From Trichocoleus sp. FACHB-46 (GTDB lineage: Bacteria > Cyanobacteriota > Cyanobacteriia > FACHB-46), in NCBI RefSeq assembly GCF_014695385.1, contig NZ_JACJOD010000006.1, forward strand, positions 186,001 to 250,000: a stretch of 64,000 nucleotides of DNA, given 5' to 3'. How positions within the stretch are numbered: position 1 is the stretch's first letter; every line of letters starts with the position of its first letter. The position numbers and the translations under genes were made by a program. Below are positions 43,144-50,507 of the stretch, one piece after another. The notes under the pieces are model-generated. The model was not told where the DNA came from. It saw only the letters and a program-made list of their open reading frames with translations, and made no database searches.

Positions 43144-44187
43144 ATGGTAACAACGCTTGACGATACAAAGCGGATGATGATTGGTACCAAGCTAGCTGAT
43201 ATTAAAGCTCTTCAAGAGCTGGTCATCGCTAATGAGCAAAGATTCATCAGCGAAATCAATGACCAAGATATTCGTCATCGTTTCCAAGAGATGCTCAAAG
43301 ATGACCAGAAGAACATGGGCGTCTTGGAAACCGTAATTGTGCAGTACGGTATTAAGTCTGAGCCTAAGCAAACCATCCGTCAGTTCGTTGACAAGTTACA
43401 AGAATTGATGGGCGGTTCTGAGCTAAGCATTTTTGAGAAAGTGTTCCAGCATGAACTACTTAAGCATCAACTAGTGATGAGCGGAGTGGTCGTCCACAAA
43501 GCGGCTCAGAAAGTCGGCGCTGACGTTGAACTCGCCATCACTCCCCTCAACACCGTCAACTTTGAAAACCGGGCGCACCAAGAGCAACTCAAGGGCGTAC
43601 TAGAAGTGCTAGGTGTGCGTGAACTCACCGGACAAGAAGCGGATCAAGGTCTGTGGGCACGGGTACAAGATGCCGTTGCTGCTCTCTCTGGTGTAGCGGG
43701 CAGCGTGATCACTCAGAACTCGGATAAATCTGACCTGAACATCCAAGATGTGATCCGTTTAGACCACAACAAGACCAACACTCTGTTTACCGAAATCCTA
43801 GGTTCTAACGATCCTCAAAAGATCCAAGAGTACTTTGGTCAGCTTTACAAAGACTTGAGCGTTCATGCTGAAGCAGAAGAGCGGGTAGTTTATCCTGCTG
43901 TGCGTCCCTTCTACGGTCAGAATGACACTCAGGAGCTATACGACGAGCAAGCTGAGATGAAGCGCAAGCTTGAAGAAATCAAGGCTCTCAGCCCTGCTTC
44001 TTCCGAGTTTAAGGATAAAGTGCGCCAGTTGATGGAAGCGGTGGGCGACCACATCCGTCAAGAAGAGAGCACTATGTTTGCGGCAATTCGCAACAACCTC
44101 AGCAGCGATCAGTCTGAGCAATTGGCAACTCAGTTTAAGGCTGCTAAGAGCCAACTTCAAGATCAAATGTCTGCTTCTAAGAAGTAG
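43144..44187 (+). CDS. Hemerythrin HHE protein with helical N-terminal domain
   Basis: 347 residues. N-terminal half (about 1-185) is an all-helical, ferritin/DUF892-like domain. C-terminal half (200-347) is a hemerythrin-type bundle with iron-ligand motifs LDHNKTN, VHAEAEERVVYP and HIRQEESTMF. Such proteins bind a di-iron centre and O2 or NO, or act in iron handling and oxidative stress. A 654-bp AT-rich region precedes it. The C-terminal half is a clear paralogue of the next gene. Confidence 0.85.
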   Translation: MVTTLDDTKRMMIGTKLADIKALQELVIANEQRFISEINDQDIRHRFQEMLKDDQKNMGVLETVIVQYGIKSEPKQTIRQFVDKLQELMGGSELSIFEKVFQHELLKHQLVMSGVVVHKAAQKVGADVELAITPLNTVNFENRAHQEQLKGVLEVLGVRELTGQEADQGLWARVQDAVAALSGVAGSVITQNSDKSDLNIQDVIRLDHNKTNTLFTEILGSNDPQKIQEYFGQLYKDLSVHAEAEERVVYPAVRPFYGQNDTQELYDEQAEMKRKLEEIKALSPASSEFKDKVRQLMEAVGDHIRQEESTMFAAIRNNLSSDQSEQLATQFKAAKSQLQDQMSASKK

Positions 44188-44241
44188 TTATTAACTGCAT
44201 TTGAATCATTATCTGTTTAGCAAACCTCAATAACCTCAATG

Positions 44242-44269
44242 TTCCCACCACTGTAGTGGTGGGAATTTT
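44242..44269 (+). terminator. Intrinsic terminator between the hemerythrin genes
   Basis: TTCCCACCACT (44242-44252) is exactly inverse to AGTGGTGGGAA (44255-44265), followed by TTTT. It separates or attenuates transcription into the second hemerythrin gene. Confidence 0.75.
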
Positions 44270-44309
44270 CTAAGTTTTGCAAGTAGCAACATCCAAGGAG
44301 TTGCAAGTG

Positions 44310-44786
44310 ATGGCTAAGGACAAGAACCAAAACATTCTGGATTTAATTGCTACTGACCACCGCAAAGTTGAGCAGATCTTTTCTCAAATTGAGAGTGCGT
44401 CTAATTTAGAGCAGTTATATCGATACTTCAACCAGCTCTATAAGGAAGTCAATTTGCATGCGCGGGCCGAAGAACTTGTTTTCTACCCTGGGCTGAGAGA
44501 GTACGAGGATACAGATGCAATGATCGCCGAAGCAGAATCAGAGCATGAAGAGGCGGCTGCACTTTTAGAAGAAATTAAAGCCCTTAGCCCTGACTCAGCC
44601 GAGTTCAAAGAAAAAATTGCTGAACTGAAGAAAGCTATTCTGCACCACGTGCAGGAAGAAGAGTCAGAAGTATTTGAGACTGCGCGAGATGGCATGGATG
44701 AGCAGCAACTCAAGCAGCTAGGCCAAGAGTTTCAGGAAGCCAAAACTAAACTTGAAGATGAGGTCGTAGAAGCCGCTTCTCTCTAA
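44310..44786 (+). CDS. Hemerythrin HHE domain protein
   Basis: 158 residues from ATG 44310, with AAGGAG nine bases upstream (a TTG frame at 44277 has no such site). Single HHE bundle: TDHRKVEQIF, LHARAEELVFYP, HHVQEEESEVF. IKALSPDSAEFKEKI mirrors IKALSPASSEFKDKV of the preceding gene, so the pair came from duplication. Likely iron/oxygen-reactive; physiological role open. Confidence 0.88.
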   Translation: MAKDKNQNILDLIATDHRKVEQIFSQIESASNLEQLYRYFNQLYKEVNLHARAEELVFYPGLREYEDTDAMIAEAESEHEEAAALLEEIKALSPDSAEFKEKIAELKKAILHHVQEEESEVFETARDGMDEQQLKQLGQEFQEAKTKLEDEVVEAASL

Positions 44787-44988
44787 AGCTGCGAAGCAAC
44801 TGGGCGATCGCCTAGTTAAACCGCCAATTGAGTTGATTACCTAAGTTGAAATTCCAGCAAAGCCAAAGAATTTAGCAAGTTGGTAATATCCCCTTATAGG
44901 GTTCGATCGCCGTATGAAGCGTTGAGTGCAACGCCTCGTGCGGTTTAATTTTTTGAGAAAACGAGTAGGTTGGGTAGATGATAAGAAA

Positions 44989-45357
44989 ATGATGCGTTGC
45001 CAAACTGCTTGGGTCACGATCGCTGCCACTGATTTCGATCGCTTGCTGGAGTTTTATCGCCAATTCTTGCAGCAAGACCCTCAGCTTCTGTTGCCAAATG
45101 TCTATGCTGAGTTTCGGCTTCCGGGGTTAAAGTTAGGAATTTTTAAGCCGAAAACTAGCCATCAATCAGAGTTTCAAGCTCCAGAACATAGTGCCATGAG
45201 TTTGTGTTTGGAGGTGGAAGATTTAGACACAGCGATCGCTCAATTAGAGGCGATCGCTGCTCCTCCCCTAGGTGAAATCATTGTGGCTACTCATGGGCGT
45301 GAAATCTACGCTTACGACCCGGAAGGGAATCGTTTGATTTTGCATCAAACTATTTAG
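44989..45357 (+). CDS. VOC-family (glyoxalase-like) protein
   Basis: 122 residues from the ATG pair at 44989/44992; the upstream GTG frame at 44926 adds non-conserved residues. Two beta-alpha-beta-beta-beta modules: AWVTIAATDFDRLLEFYRQF at the start and a second half ending YAYDPEGNRLILHQ with the typical DPEGN. VOC proteins bind a metal and act as isomerases, dioxygenases or resistance proteins; the substrate is not evident. Confidence 0.82.
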   Translation: MMRCQTAWVTIAATDFDRLLEFYRQFLQQDPQLLLPNVYAEFRLPGLKLGIFKPKTSHQSEFQAPEHSAMSLCLEVEDLDTAIAQLEAIAAPPLGEIIVATHGREIYAYDPEGNRLILHQTI

Positions 45358-45459
45358 ACAATAGATGAAACCGAGTCTAGGTAAGGCTCAGCGAAGGCAG
45401 ATGTAATAGGCGATCGCGGCCGTTAATCACTATAGAACTGTATAGGCGATCACACAGAG

Positions 45460-45471
45460 GGTAATATTACC
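45460..45471. promoter_or_regulatory. 12-bp perfect palindrome upstream of the Crp-like gene
   Basis: GGTAATATTACC is perfectly self-complementary, about 175 bp before the regulator start. Confidence 0.4.
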
Positions 45472-45569
45472 AGGGCCAGTTTTGCTACGGTGATAGTTAG
45501 ATTAAGAGTGATTACTATGTGCTTCACCAACGCCATTTACTTCGATCAAAGTTAATCGCTTGAATGACA

Positions 45570-45592
45570 CCTTGAATTCAAATGATTCAAGG
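45570..45592. promoter_or_regulatory. 8-bp inverted repeat before the Crp-like gene
   Basis: CCTTGAAT (45570-45577) and ATTCAAGG (45585-45592), 7-nt spacer, about 55 bp before the start. Size and position suit autoregulation by a Crp-family dimer. Confidence 0.45.
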
Positions 45593-45645
45593 CTCTAAGT
45601 TTGGCTGTCCTTGGCGTCCTGTCACCCTACAACCTCACACAGAAG

Positions 45646-46389
45646 ATGGACTCAACATCGACTCGTCTGCCAAAAGGCCAGCAAATTCAAAATCGCTTGC
45701 TGGCTAAATTACCCAGTCAAGAGCTGGAACTTCTGCGTCCTCACCTAGAGGAGATTGAGCTGACTCATGGTCAACCCCTGATTCTGCCCTATGAGCCGAT
45801 TCCCTACATCTACTTTCCGACTACGGCACTCGCTTCTTTAGTGACGGTGTTGGAGGATGGGGCAACTGTAGAGTCTGGTTCGGTTGGCTGTGAAGGCGTT
45901 GTGGGTTTGCCTGTCTTCTTAGATGCTGGCATCACTCCGATGCAGAACATGGTCCAGATTCCGGGGCAGGGCATCCGAGTTAGGTCAGACATTGCCAAGG
46001 CTGCCTTCGATCGCCGGGGAGACTTCTATAGCTTGATTCACCGTTATATCCATACTCTCCTGGTTGTCGCGTCGCAGTCCGCTGCTTGTAACCGCCATCA
46101 CGCCATAAAAATGCGGCTCAGTCGCTGGCTACTGATGAGTAGTGATGGGGTAGGTTCAGAGGAGTTGGCTTTAACCCAGGAGTTTCTAGCAACGATGCTA
46201 GGAGTGAGACGCTCTGGCGTGACAGAAGCAGCTCTACAGCTACAGCAGGAGCAGTTGATTTCCTATGGTCGAGGCAAGATCCGGATTCTAGATCGGAAAA
46301 GATTAGAGGCATCATCTTGTGAGTGCTACCAAATGGTTAAGAATGAATTCGCTCGCCTGTTGAGTTTGGAAAGCGATCGCCCACGTTAG
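45646..46389 (+). CDS. Crp/Fnr-family transcriptional regulator
   Basis: 247 residues from ATG 45646 (a TTG frame starts at 45601). N-terminal cNMP-type beta roll (YIYFPTTALASLVTVLEDGATVESGSVG is spread over it) with degenerate phosphate cassette, so cAMP binding is doubtful. Helical dimerisation region, then a winged HTH: QEFLATMLGVRRSGVTEAA and YGRGKIRILDRKRLEASSC. The Cys pair SSCEC near the C-terminus is unusual. Effector and targets unknown; the palindromes upstream are candidate self-sites. Confidence 0.85.
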   Translation: MDSTSTRLPKGQQIQNRLLAKLPSQELELLRPHLEEIELTHGQPLILPYEPIPYIYFPTTALASLVTVLEDGATVESGSVGCEGVVGLPVFLDAGITPMQNMVQIPGQGIRVRSDIAKAAFDRRGDFYSLIHRYIHTLLVVASQSAACNRHHAIKMRLSRWLLMSSDGVGSEELALTQEFLATMLGVRRSGVTEAALQLQQEQLISYGRGKIRILDRKRLEASSCECYQMVKNEFARLLSLESDRPR

Positions 46390-46567: not shown

Positions 46568-47557
46568 ATGCCCGTACAAGTGCAAACCCAGCGATCGGGC
46601 CGCTTTATGGACCCTTGGCCTTACTTAACCTTGGCTACAGCGGTAGTAATGTTGCTGGCGTTAATCAATGCTGGTTTTGTAGGCAAGACGTTGCTCGCCA
46701 CGAGCCTGAATGTAGACCCTGAAGAAGCGACAGAACTCCAACCCATTCAGGTTGAAAAAACACCGATTGGCGCATTGCGAATCGACACCGAAGCTACGAT
46801 TCCAGACAACCAGTGGGTCACCTACGAAATTCAACTGCGCGATCGCCAAGGCAATCTACTCGCCAGCGGGATTAAGCAAGCCTGGAGTGAGTCAGGCACT
46901 TGGAATGAGGAAGGCGAATCGGGCACTTGGCAAGAATCCGATTTAACGGGTGGTTTGGATGTCCGCCCTAACCAATCCGAACCCATGACGATCGCGATTC
47001 AGGTTTTGGACTATACCAACACTTCCGGGCAAGAAATTGATCAACCTGTGCCGATCACAGTCACAGTGCAGAATGGGGTGGTGGATGGTCGCTATCTCTG
47101 GGCTGGGTTGATCGGCACCACTAGTTTAGCCCTGTTGTCGTTAGTCGCTGTTCCGCTTACAGGTGCTCAGGTCATCGAAAAGACTATCCCAGATAGCGAT
47201 GTGGGCGATCGCGCGGTAATGGGTGGGAGCGATCGCTTGGTGCGGGTCACAGTAGACATTACCTCTGATGAAACTTCTCCGAAAGCATTAGAAGTCGAGT
47301 TGTTCGTTAAAGACCAGAACGGTGAGCAGATCTATACCAATTCGTTTCCGGTCAAGCTCAGCTTGTCTAAAGAAAACGGCAAAGTAGATGAAGGCACTGG
47401 TACACTCACCGTGTTCTTTCTACTAGAGCCGCGCAGTTCCTATGGCTTCTACGCCGAAGTGGTTCCTGATGGCCCAATTGACAAAACCGAATTAGTCGTT
47501 CGGGATGGAGCCAAGACTTTAATTCCTGTTCAGGTGGTTCACCTAAAAACCATTTAA
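46568..47557 (+). CDS. Bitopic membrane protein with extracytoplasmic beta-rich domains
   Basis: 329 residues; GAGGGA precedes the ATG. N-terminal helix (LTLATAVVMLLALINAGFV, about 20-39), a beta-rich domain (50-175), a second helix (LWAGLIGTTSLALLSLVAVPL, about 177-197) and a second beta-rich domain (220-329) with VTVDITSDETSPKALEVEL. The middle carries a short duplication, ESGTWNEEGESGTWQESD. No known family. It leads a tight operon with polyamine genes, so it may sense or anchor the complex at the membrane. Confidence 0.75.
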   Translation: MPVQVQTQRSGRFMDPWPYLTLATAVVMLLALINAGFVGKTLLATSLNVDPEEATELQPIQVEKTPIGALRIDTEATIPDNQWVTYEIQLRDRQGNLLASGIKQAWSESGTWNEEGESGTWQESDLTGGLDVRPNQSEPMTIAIQVLDYTNTSGQEIDQPVPITVTVQNGVVDGRYLWAGLIGTTSLALLSLVAVPLTGAQVIEKTIPDSDVGDRAVMGGSDRLVRVTVDITSDETSPKALEVELFVKDQNGEQIYTNSFPVKLSLSKENGKVDEGTGTLTVFFLLEPRSSYGFYAEVVPDGPIDKTELVVRDGAKTLIPVQVVHLKTI

Positions 47558-47563
47558 CTCAAT

Positions 47564-47591
47564 GTTTGTTGGTCCCTATTTGTTGGTCCCT
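47564..47591. repeat. 14-bp perfect tandem duplication
   Basis: TTTGTTGGTCCCTA occurs twice in a row (47564-47577, 47578-47591), seven bases after the stop of the 46568 gene. Confidence 0.9.
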
Positions 47592-47610
47592 ATAAGTTAG
47601 GAATGAGATC

Positions 47611-47838
47611 ATGACTTCTGCATTTGCGATCGCGGCTCTCCTGGTTACAGGTATTACTCTCACCGCTGGGTACACCCAGAGTTCTTCGCTACACCTCCGA
47701 GAAGAACGGCAACCGATGTATTGGCCCCGATACGGCACCAGTTTATCGGGTCGCTACCACAACCGCCTTTGGCTGGCTAACCCGGAACGGACCAGCTACG
47801 GTGAGTTTCGTGGGGGTGGCCCTGGAGCAGGCAAGTAA
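47611..47838 (+). CDS. Tiny secreted/anchored protein ending FRGGGPGAGK
   Basis: 75 residues. N-terminal hydrophobic segment (AFAIAALLVTGITLTAGY), a Tyr/Arg-rich middle (PMYWPRYGTSLSGRYHNRLW) and a Gly-rich C-terminus FRGGGPGAGK. The TAA at 47836-47838 is one base before the ATG of the aminopropyltransferase gene, so it is likely translated as part of the operon. The competing frame at 47624 runs over the same bases but would give that enzyme an odd N-terminus. Confidence 0.65.
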   Translation: MTSAFAIAALLVTGITLTAGYTQSSSLHLREERQPMYWPRYGTSLSGRYHNRLWLANPERTSYGEFRGGGPGAGK

Positions 47839-47839
47839 C

Positions 47840-49459
47840 ATGACATCTCTAGGGCAAGCGACCATGCAGGCTGGGGAGCCAGAAAATCTCAGTCTAAGTC
47901 GGCGGCAGCGGCATTTGTTGTTAGCAGCAACGGCGATTTCTTCGAGTTGTGGATTAGCAATTGAACTGCTGCTGGGCACTTTGGCGAGTTACTTAGTTGG
48001 CAATCAGGCGCTTGCTTATGGGGTGGCAGTGGGTGGCTTTTTAGCCGCGATGGGAGTTGGGTCTTATTTAAGCCGATTCATTGCCGTTCCTGACTCAGCC
48101 AATGAACTAGTAGCAGTTCAGTCAGAGAGCGATCGCCTGCGACAGGAGCAGCAGCAACTCCTAACCACCTTTGCCCAGATTGAACTTGCGATCGCGCCGC
48201 TGAGTGCGCTGCTGCCACTAGGGCTATTCATTTTATTTGTGGTCAACGGTCCCGTCTGGATTGGGTTGTTTCTAGTGACGTTGCTGTTGGGCACCCTGGC
48301 AGGTTTGGAAGTGCCGCTGCTGACTCGAATCTTGGAGCAAGAGGCGGGAGTACGAGATGCTCTCTCTGGGGTTTTAGCGCTGGATTACTTGGGGGCACTG
48401 GTGGGGTCGTTGGCGCTGCCTGTGGTTTTGTTACCCACAGTAGGGATGTTTCCGTCGGCGGCGTTGATTGGGGCGTTACCTGCTCTCATGGTGTTTGCCC
48501 TCGGTCGGACTTTCCCCCAACTACGACGTTGGCGGCGCTGGGGTCTAGTGGTTTGTTTTGGCCTCTTTGCCTTGGCTCCGCTGACTGTGCCATTGGGCGA
48601 TCGCTTGGAAAACACGCTCTACAACGCCCCAGTGATCAGCCGTATTCAGTCGCCTTATCAGCGGATTGTGCTGACTCGCCAAGCAGGAGACGTGCGCTTA
48701 TTTCTGGATGGAGATTTGCAGTTCTCCACCTTAGATGAGTATCGCTACCACGAAGCTCTGGTGCATCCCGCCATGAGTGCCAGTCGCGATCGCCGTCGAG
48801 TACTACTGATGGGCGCAGGAGATGGCTTAGCGCTGCGGGAAGTGCTGAAATGGCCCGAAGTGGAGCGGGTATTGTTAGTTGACCTAGATGCAGCAGTGAT
48901 TAATTTGGCGCGACGACATCCCTTTCTCGTGCAAGCCAATGCTCACGCTTTGGATGATCCGCGTGTAGAGGTCAGGCAGGCGGATGCTTTCTTAACCGTA
49001 CCGACGCTGCCCGAAACCTTTGATGTGATTATTGCAGACTTTCCAGACCCCGACCGAGACACACTTGCTAAGCTCTATGCTCAAGGCTTTTATCAACGTT
49101 TATTAACCCGCTTAGCGCCTGCTGGAGTATTGGTGACGCAGGCATCGAGTCCCTTTTTTGCCCCGCGAGCCTTTGCCTGTGTCGCCGCAACGCTGGAATC
49201 AGTTGGTTTATCGGTGCATCCTTACGTCACGGATGTCCCCAGCTTCGGGCCTTGGGGCTTTGTTTTGGCAATGCGTGCCCCCTTGCAAGCTGCAACGCTG
49301 AAGTTACCTGTTGCCACCAAGTTTTTGACGGAACCACTGTTGCAACAACTCTTCCAACTGCCTAAAGATGTGCAACTTGGCAATGTAGAAATCAATCGCT
49401 TAGCAAACCCAGTGCTGGTGAAGTATCAAGCTGATCCACGTTGGGCAGCTTATCACTAA
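47840..49459 (+). CDS. Membrane-anchored spermidine-synthase-like aminopropyltransferase
   Basis: 539 residues from ATG 47840. N-terminal half has about six or seven membrane helices (LLLAATAISSSCGLAIELLL onward). C-terminal half is a spermidine-synthase fold: LDGDLQFSTLDEYRYHEAL, SAM-analogue loop MGAGDGLALREVL, acidic LLVDLDAAVI and DFPDPD in place of D-S-x-D-P. It should transfer an aminopropyl group from decarboxylated SAM, perhaps to an acceptor at the membrane. The SAM decarboxylase gene is two genes downstream. The longer frame from 47624 is rejected because it overlaps the small gene. Confidence 0.85.
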   Translation: MTSLGQATMQAGEPENLSLSRRQRHLLLAATAISSSCGLAIELLLGTLASYLVGNQALAYGVAVGGFLAAMGVGSYLSRFIAVPDSANELVAVQSESDRLRQEQQQLLTTFAQIELAIAPLSALLPLGLFILFVVNGPVWIGLFLVTLLLGTLAGLEVPLLTRILEQEAGVRDALSGVLALDYLGALVGSLALPVVLLPTVGMFPSAALIGALPALMVFALGRTFPQLRRWRRWGLVVCFGLFALAPLTVPLGDRLENTLYNAPVISRIQSPYQRIVLTRQAGDVRLFLDGDLQFSTLDEYRYHEALVHPAMSASRDRRRVLLMGAGDGLALREVLKWPEVERVLLVDLDAAVINLARRHPFLVQANAHALDDPRVEVRQADAFLTVPTLPETFDVIIADFPDPDRDTLAKLYAQGFYQRLLTRLAPAGVLVTQASSPFFAPRAFACVAATLESVGLSVHPYVTDVPSFGPWGFVLAMRAPLQAATLKLPVATKFLTEPLLQQLFQLPKDVQLGNVEINRLANPVLVKYQADPRWAAYH

Positions 49460-49475
49460 GGAAGAGAGGTGGAGG

Positions 49476-50081
49476 ATGATCACATTAGTTTGGCTTGGCG
49501 TGATTGCAGTGGTGGTAGTTGGTGTAGTTTTGGTCGTGCGCCAGTCGCAGGGGCGTTTACCCAATCAAGGCGATCGCGCTCAACTACCTTCCCTAGCCCG
49601 TACCATCTTCACCTTAGAGGTGGGAGATATTGTGCAATACATGGGCACCGACTGGGTCGTAGAGGGCAAGCTCACCTACGACAGCAACGGCTACACCTGG
49701 CTAGAGTACTTGTTGCAAGATGGCGATCGCCTCCGCTGGCTTTCCGTAGAAGAAGATGACCAAGTGGAAGTCAATTTCTTGGAGCCAACCCAAGGTTTAG
49801 ATATTCCTAGCACGCCTCCCACGCATCTCACGTTTGGCGGTGTGGCTTATCGGCAAGTGGAAGCGGGCACAGCGCGAATGACTCGTGCCGGCACCACCTT
49901 AAACCGCCAAGCCGAACAATGCCGCTACTTTGACTACGCCGCCTCTGATGACGCCTCTAACGACCAAGTGCTCTCCGTCGAAGATTGGGAAGGAGGTTTA
50001 GAAGTCACAGTCGGAACTCGGATTCGTCCTACGGCTCTGACTCTGCTACCTGGGGATGGTCACCGAGTTTATGGTGCCTAG
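49476..50081 (+). CDS. DUF4178 membrane-anchored protein
   Basis: 201 residues, one N-terminal helix (VWLGVIAVVVVGVVLVV) then a DUF4178 domain: VGDIVQYMGTDWVVEGKLTY, WLEYLLQDGDRLRWLSVEED and a second half with YRQVEAGTARMTRAGTT. DUF4178 genes recur with aminopropyltransferase and SAM decarboxylase genes in bacteria, some near PspA; role unknown. Starts 16 bp after the enzyme gene. Confidence 0.82.
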   Translation: MITLVWLGVIAVVVVGVVLVVRQSQGRLPNQGDRAQLPSLARTIFTLEVGDIVQYMGTDWVVEGKLTYDSNGYTWLEYLLQDGDRLRWLSVEEDDQVEVNFLEPTQGLDIPSTPPTHLTFGGVAYRQVEAGTARMTRAGTTLNRQAEQCRYFDYAASDDASNDQVLSVEDWEGGLEVTVGTRIRPTALTLLPGDGHRVYGA

Positions 50082-50135
50082 GTTTCTCCTTTTTTTTAGA
50101 TTTTTCCCTTTTTTATAGATGATTGGCGATCGCTC

Positions 50136-50507
50136 ATGACCACCTCCACACTTAGCTCTCACCATCTCTCCGCGATTCTTCCGGCTGCCGCCGCTGTATA
50201 TTACTGGACAGAAGCTGATTTTCTCAGCTTGCTGCAAAGCGTGGTTGGGCAAGTCGGGTTGACGATAGTAGGAGAGCTGGCATTTACCTTTCAGCCCCAC
50301 GGCATTTCTGCGATCGCCATGCTAGCGGAATCCCATGTGGCTCTGCACTTCTGGCCAGAGAAAGGCAAGGTCACGGTTGACATTCACGTTTGCGATTTTG
50401 AGCAAGGCAACCAGATTAAAGCTGAACAATTAGCGCAACTGCTGAGCCTGCAAATTACAGGTGAGAGTTGTGTAGAGCATTGGCACTGTTTGTCGATTAC
50501 TAGTTAA
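50136..50507 (+). CDS. speD: S-adenosylmethionine decarboxylase proenzyme
   Basis: 123 residues. The self-cleavage site is AESHVALHFWPEKG: E65-Ser66-H67, where Ser66 becomes the pyruvoyl group. H71 and C86 (DIHVCDFEQ) are spaced +5 and +20 from Ser66, as in the Thermotoga enzyme (S63, H68, C83). It makes decarboxylated SAM for the aminopropyltransferase of the operon. Last gene of the cluster, 54 bp after DUF4178. Confidence 0.9.
   Translation: MTTSTLSSHHLSAILPAAAAVYYWTEADFLSLLQSVVGQVGLTIVGELAFTFQPHGISAIAMLAESHVALHFWPEKGKVTVDIHVCDFEQGNQIKAEQLAQLLSLQITGESCVEHWHCLSITS

Follow-up and report, generated by a model that had tools for sequence, protein, structure and literature searches.

A SpeD-linked, membrane-fused aminopropyltransferase cluster of cyanobacteria with a small lysine-ended partner protein

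The locus described here raises the question of which molecule receives the aminopropyl group from an aminopropyltransferase (APT) that is fused to a membrane domain and encoded close to a SpeD-type AdoMet decarboxylase. The cluster is located in a 64,000-nucleotide stretch of the Trichocoleus sp. FACHB-46 genome, the whole of which is referred to as the window. A preliminary description of this DNA listed five same-strand genes separated by gaps of 53, 1, 16 and 54 nt, and the coordinates of the open reading frames agree with it. The genes, here g1 to g5, and their parts are as follows (positions in the window):

46568-47557, + strand: g1, two-pass membrane protein of 329 aa (AF2, pLDDT 94.9)
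46685-47080, + strand: predicted outside beta-sandwich of g1, residues 40-171 (AF2)
47165-47551, + strand: predicted inside beta-sandwich of g1, residues 200-328 (AF2)
47611-47838, + strand: g2, 75-aa anchored or exported protein with an invariant C-terminal Lys, proposed acceptor (body-only HMM, dN/dS)
47812-47838, + strand: g2 tail codons, GGGPGAGK and stop (pattern search, 194 genomes)
47840-49459, + strand: g3, membrane-fused APT of 539 aa (NF002956, PF01564, AF2 pLDDT 90.9)
47900-48622, + strand: membrane domain of g3, seven helices, residues 21-261 (AF2, conservation)
48623-49456, + strand: catalytic SpdSyn-fold domain of g3, residues 262-539 (VIA-align, residue counts in 58 sequences)
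49476-50081, + strand: g4, DUF4178 protein of 201 aa with an N-terminal membrane helix (PF13785, 1.7e-40)
50136-50507, + strand: g5, divergent class 1b SpeD-type AdoMet decarboxylase of 123 aa (PF02675, 4.2e-17; alignment)

The dN/dS values against two congeners are 0.11 for g1, 0.17-0.19 for g2, 0.04 for g3, 0.04-0.05 for g4 and 0.06-0.08 for g5, which shows that all five, including the tiny g2, are genes under purifying selection. Family scans name g3, g4 and g5 by the models given above, and neither g1, g2 nor the other tiny proteins discussed below matched a Pfam or NCBIfam model at gathering score. No PspA/CesT-Tir pair and no SPFH protein is encoded among the five genes. A defence system and a phage origin were both considered and rejected: the sole PADLOC match (mads_2) falls on the methyltransferase-like part of g3, and the PHROGs matches are limited to SpeD and one weak methyltransferase match.

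The product of g3 scores 550 bits with NF002956 (PRK03612), above the curated cut-off of 472, and matches PF01564 with 3e-33. As the preliminary description had stated, it is an APT with SAM and acid motifs fused to about seven helices; the AF2 model contains seven helices and a domain of the SpdSyn fold, and the motif residues are kept. The structure-search list of g3 was filled by matches to the catalytic domain, whose closest matches in VIA-align are 1uir, a Thermus APT (Z 35.4), and 6bq2, a thermospermine synthase (Z 33.9). This domain carries D299/E300/Y303/H304/E305, GxGDG, D400, D403, PSFGxWG and R302. In 58 APT sequences, 51 of them cyanobacterial and seven from other bacteria, the donor-site residues are invariant, with D400 kept in 58/58 and D403 in 57/58. 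The putrescine-site motif PTYPSG is replaced by VPSFGPWG in g3 and by PSFGxWG in 58/58 sequences. Pyrobaculum SpeE has the PSF motif as well, and a thermospermine synthase has the similar IPSYADIWGW. Arg302, directly before the acceptor-site Tyr303, is also invariant, the aligned soluble enzymes having I, V or Y at this position; we propose that it may bind the carboxylate of a C-terminal lysine.

The membrane domain of the transferase contains the invariant residues E42, Y51, E157, R163, D182 and Y183, as would be expected if a charged ligand were handled there. The mean number of Lys and Arg residues in the successive loops of g3 alternates strictly (2.2, 0.03, 0.9, 0.2, 2.5, 0.1 and 3.3). 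Together with the seven helices and an N-terminus inside the cell, this predicts that the catalytic domain lies outside, and outward-facing catalysis by g3 is slightly favoured on the grounds of this predicted topology.

DUF4178 is encoded in 36 of 194 cyanobacterial genomes, which were sorted by neighbourhood into type A (n=21, window included) and type B (n=15). The type A order is g1-g2-APT-DUF4178, in some genomes with SpeD adjoining; in one member DUF4178 lies apart from the g1-g2-APT unit (L044, L172). The type B order is DUF4178-APT followed mostly by a FemAB/GNAT protein. Many type B members have a full-length DUF350, and their APT is about 30-36% identical to the type A enzyme. When the type A enzyme was used to scan about 85,000 species genomes, 80 loci were kept. 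All are cyanobacterial, and marine Synechococcus, Cyanobium and Prochlorococcus are among their hosts. Most of the 21 type A genomes and most of these 80 further loci show the type A order. Of 93 distinct loci, 88 extend far enough upstream to look for g1, which adjoins the APT in 81 of them, and 84 extend far enough downstream to look for DUF4178, which follows the APT in 77 of them. The tie of the transferase to SpeD and DUF4178, put forward in the preliminary description, was examined by looking for relatives without them: SpeD is present in every type A genome but often not adjacent, and the tie to DUF4178 holds in the fraction of loci just given. The absence of DUF350, also noted there, is true locally, none being found in the window's whole genome. 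In relatives, however, a half-length DUF350 is part of the cluster: it occurs in 13/21 type A genomes, mostly divergent and adjoining g1, and in 0/173 others.

The product of g5 scores below the cut-off of TIGR03330. Its residues S66/H71/C86 match S63/H68/C83 of T. maritima, which bears out the active-site spacing reported for it earlier. The window's genome encodes one SpeD (g5) and one APT (g3), both in the cluster. Neofunctionalised SpeD proteins with ornithine or arginine as substrate are described in PMC10407285; the location of the genome's sole SpeD beside its sole APT would argue for AdoMet as the g5 substrate. SpeD is present in 21/21 type A genomes and in 80/173 others (Fisher 4e-7, uncorrected for kinship). 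In 12 of the 21 it is encoded in or beside the cluster and no other APT is present; ten of these 12 cluster SpeDs are divergent (about 53-72 bits) and two are canonical. The remaining nine encode a canonical SpeD away from the cluster and also a soluble enzyme of the spermidine-synthase type, in most cases beside SpeD or fused to it. It follows from this 12/0/0/9 split that the membrane enzyme depends on SpeD and does not merely stand in for SpdSyn. Two earlier suggestions are thereby strengthened: that decarboxylated AdoMet is supplied by SpeD and used by a membrane-bound enzyme, by the presence of SpeD in all cluster genomes, and that the acceptor is something other than free putrescine, by the nine genomes that keep a separate soluble enzyme. 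The carboxyspermidine route to spermidine was rejected for the window's genome, in which no nspC match was found.

The comparative signal of the cluster points to the tiny gene g2. A search with an HMM of the g2 body lacking the last 12 residues, which is blind to the tail, found 83 distinct cyanobacterial homologues, and all 83 end in Lys. Selection bias as the source of this count was rejected, as 55/55 distinct homologues found by plain tblastn end in Lys as well as the 83/83 from the body-only HMM; about 9% of conserved neighbour genes do so. The other tail positions vary in the 83 homologues: F is found at -10 in 79, G at -8 in 82 and P at -5 in 63, and residue -2 is G in 62, A in 18 and V in 3. 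The pattern GGGPGxGK-stop occurs 13 times in the 194 genomes, always at this cluster, and the reversed control occurs once. In picocyanobacteria the tail has drifted to FQGRGPxxAK with the Lys retained, and in some loci (L047, L048, L052, L134 and L156) the tail is kept on a different body. Both Lys codons are used, which indicates that the constraint acts on the protein; a nucleotide-level constraint through overlap with the next start codon was rejected for this reason and because the distance to the next gene varies. A P-loop reading of GGGPGAGK was likewise discarded, as the Lys is the last residue, no Ser or Thr follows it and the motif drifts to GRGPxxAK in picocyanobacteria. A few g2 proteins have lipobox-like cysteines and the remainder an N-terminal hydrophobic anchor or signal, so that g2 is expected to reside outside the cytoplasm. 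Very probably, then, this membrane aminopropyltransferase forms a module that is conserved in cyanobacteria, is linked to SpeD, has an obligate Lys-ended partner there and does not serve plain spermidine synthesis.

The protein encoded by g1 was initially described as bitopic, which the AF2 model does not support: two membrane helices (17-37 and 175-197) flank one beta-sandwich (40-171), and a second follows at residues 200-328. Foldseek and VIA-align matched the ectodomain alone, to generic beta-sandwiches (GOLD-like, subtilisin C-terminal domain). In hhalign (E 5.5e-9, probability 96%) the ectodomain shows homology to the one carried by DUF4178 proteins of proteobacteria. In three genomes g1 and g2 are found away from the transferase, which is still present; the two remain together elsewhere, with the tail GGGPG(S/A)GK.

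Close relatives of the transferase also occur on 13 plasmid records. In the fully read records, a small anchored protein or a lipoprotein ending in Lys is encoded near the transferase in six genera, which is suggestive and not an unbiased count, since these non-cyanobacterial reading frames were chosen by eye from their position and C-terminus. They comprise small proteins of Ensifer (...LGGGPESGK), Novosphingobium (...SGYTGPSHK and ...GGSYGPTHK), Burkholderia stagnalis (...SSYGSHK, with a lipobox), Gemmatirosa (...ARFRHGK) and Tritonibacter (...LNSNRVK) and a 510-aa lipoprotein of Alteromonas (...SFRNRGPSSGK). What they have in common is the C-terminal Lys, their bodies being either unrelated or too short for a judgement. 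The record of B. arboris was read in part; that of B. cenocepacia was read over a shorter stretch, which showed no partner ending in Lys. In Novosphingobium, Gemmatirosa and Tritonibacter, a half DUF350 of 69-74 aa, which matches the half-length DUF350 of type A genomes, precedes the transferase, and the ectodomain of the second DUF4178 protein is homologous to the g1 ectodomain. The Novosphingobium and Burkholderia clusters also encode a flavin amine oxidase that bears a twin-arginine signal and, in most cases, a lipobox-like Cys; this would be consistent with chemistry outside the cytoplasm. A likely counter-example is Rv2599 (DUF4247) of M. tuberculosis, the exported member of a related operon, for which a primer printed in PMC3726780 implies the C-terminus GDDA and not Lys.

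We tentatively propose that the cluster is dedicated to aminopropylation in the envelope and that the C-terminal Lys of g2 is the acceptor at the outer face of the membrane. Decarboxylated AdoMet would be made in the cytosol by the SpeD encoded by g5 and presented, or passed across the membrane, by the seven helices of g3, and the SpdSyn-fold domain, predicted to face outward, would transfer the aminopropyl group. The likeliest acceptor would be the epsilon-amine of the g2 C-terminal Lys, giving an N-epsilon-(3-aminopropyl)lysine tail, and g1 and the membrane-anchored g4 could act as scaffold or regulators. The acceptor role of g2, drawn from association and from one invariant residue, is a plausible suggestion that we hold with less than even confidence. 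We know of no precedent for decarboxylated AdoMet outside the cytosol. The wider statement that bacteria of several phyla aminopropylate the C-terminal Lys of small envelope proteins at the outer face of the inner membrane, using an enzyme whose fused transporter would export or present decarboxylated AdoMet, is doubtful at present.

Alternatively, g3 might aminopropylate a free polyamine such as homospermidine or spermidine; its membrane domain would then export or import the product, and g2 would be a subunit. The relationship of the catalytic domain to Thermus aminopropylagmatine/triamine and thermospermine synthases and the PSF motif described above fit this alternative. The window's genome also contains a gene of the deoxyhypusine-synthase family, which in bacteria usually stands for homospermidine synthesis, so that homospermidine is probably present. 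Several bacterial APTs form N1-aminopropylhomospermidine in vitro (PMC11107197). The invariant C-terminal Lys and the recurrent Lys-ended proteins would, however, be left unexplained, and nine genomes have soluble APTs alongside. Fusions of this kind reportedly failed to complement a SpdSyn mutant, and we regard a free polyamine as an unlikely acceptor. A lipid or another small molecule of the envelope, which the preliminary description had suggested, is similarly unlikely; g2 would then be a subunit for docking or regulation, its C-terminal Lys mimicking the acceptor or placing it in position. The enzyme is membrane-embedded, and in other bacteria such clusters are accompanied by SPFH/band-7 and PspA-like proteins tied to the state of the membrane, but no conserved gene for lipid binding or synthesis was found in the neighbourhoods read, no motif points to a lipid, and the comparative signal leads to g2. 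Least likely is a separate assembly or sorting signal in the g2 tail, with the Lys read by g1 or a carboxypeptidase in an envelope complex of g1 and g2 and the transferase acting elsewhere: the split of g1-g2 from the transferase in three genomes makes them a unit of their own, but these genomes retain the transferase, and in phyla that lack g1 as such, Lys-ended proteins still adjoin this transferase.

Pairs of SpeD and membrane SpdSyn fusions are already known as an aminopropylation system, and the new element is the Lys-ended partner. As an obligate partner it makes the question of the acceptor directly testable, as a C-terminal peptide shifted by +57.058 Da. If aminopropylation of the g2 Lys is true, it would be a new protein modification comparable to deoxyhypusine or the silaffin lysines and an extracytoplasmic use of decarboxylated AdoMet. 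It would also explain why cells without a spermidine synthase keep SpeD and would give the PspA/DUF4178/DUF350 envelope operons a biochemical output. For annotation, the name "polyamine aminopropyltransferase" of this protein should not be taken as evidence for spermidine synthesis.

The closest known systems are the clusters of AdoMetDC, membrane/SpdSyn fusion and DUF350 reportedly described by Li et al. in 2019 (Biochem J 476:2579), who are said to have inferred an acceptor other than putrescine and to have seen the lack of complementation mentioned above. As here, SpeD is paired with a membrane-fused SpdSyn-like protein and the acceptor is thought not to be putrescine; those clusters have DUF350, whereas the window's genome has the two-pass g1 and the Lys-ended g2 instead. 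To our knowledge, as far as checked, a Lys-ended partner was apparently not put forward as acceptor in that work. Compared with a cluster of AdoMetDC, membrane SpdSyn fusion, DUF350 and DUF4178, the window cluster shows the linkage of SpeD and DUF4178, and because its genome has no DUF350 it is filed as a variant of that kind. Related operons are treated in the relevant passages of Manfredi et al. 2024 (PMC11237479), which cite Li et al. 2019 for the aminopropylation of other substrates. The PspA/CesT-Tir operon given there contains a 7TM-spermine synthase, DUF350, the Ctha_1186 lipoprotein and DUF4178. It resembles the present cluster in the 7TM-fused spermine synthase, DUF4178 and an exported small protein or lipoprotein, and differs in its PspA/CesT pair, which g1-g5 lack; in these passages g1 and g2 are not named and a C-terminal Lys is not mentioned. 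The modification does occur naturally, as lysine epsilon-amines of diatom silaffins bear aminopropyl units, although silaffins are eukaryotic, are modified at internal lysines and serve silica deposition (PMC4557024). The Novosphingobium, Gemmatirosa and Tritonibacter clusters (L161, L165 and L166) have the order SPFH-DUF4178-DUF4178-tiny-half DUF350-APT(-amine oxidase-SpeD). They differ in that the ectodomain, free in g1, is fused to a zinc ribbon and DUF4178, and in having a half-size DUF350 and in some cases an amine oxidase, neither of which is found in the window. They share with it an APT that is 37-41% identical, a tiny Lys-ended protein encoded upstream and a DUF4178 protein with a g1-like ectodomain.

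The region upstream of the cluster carries two related ORFs of 347 and 169 aa, which were judged by eye to be hemerythrin-like, together with a VOC-like ORF and an ORF for a Crp/Fnr-like regulator (262 aa). The order of these genes is kept in both congeners of the window's genome, and the regulator could control the cluster.

43144-46389 of the window, ORFs upstream of the cluster

A half-length DUF350 gene of about 70 aa adjoins g1, which encodes the two-pass membrane protein, in divergent orientation at five loci from other genomes. Within the 194-genome sample this gene is restricted to genomes with the type A cluster (g1-g2-APT-DUF4178), and in the window's genus it has been lost.

L036 1182-1394, minus strand, half-length DUF350
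L039 1099-1305, minus strand, half-length DUF350
L045 4498-4704, minus strand, half-length DUF350
L049 11558-11800, plus strand, half-length DUF350
L051 3763-3987, minus strand, half-length DUF350

The catalytic domain of the membrane-fused aminopropyltransferase APT contains about 60 additional residues near residue 320 in two related genomes. At another locus, a transposase ORF splits the APT gene at about residue 411.

L033 7004-7182, additional APT stretch
L034 7460-7698, additional APT stretch
L043 6226-7398, IS605 OrfB-type transposase ORF with one part of the APT gene on either side

Two genomes contain, outside the cluster, a short unrelated ORF ending in NCS.DT..GGRSGSGK-stop, perhaps a fragment or another Lys-ended protein.

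L183 768-863, plus strand, short Lys-ended ORF
L186 1399-1527, minus strand, short Lys-ended ORF

The second cyanobacterial DUF4178-APT cluster, type B (L053-L067), is accompanied by a FemAB/GNAT-like protein and a full-length DUF350. In the alignment of five type B APTs, the C-terminus bears a segment of VFAKG plus Gly/Ser-rich sequence flanked by two hydrophobic stretches, and DFTxP stands in place of DFPDP, so that the catalytic Asp of spermidine synthase is replaced. Since SpeD is also absent altogether from 9 of the 15 type B genomes, the reaction of this cluster may be different.
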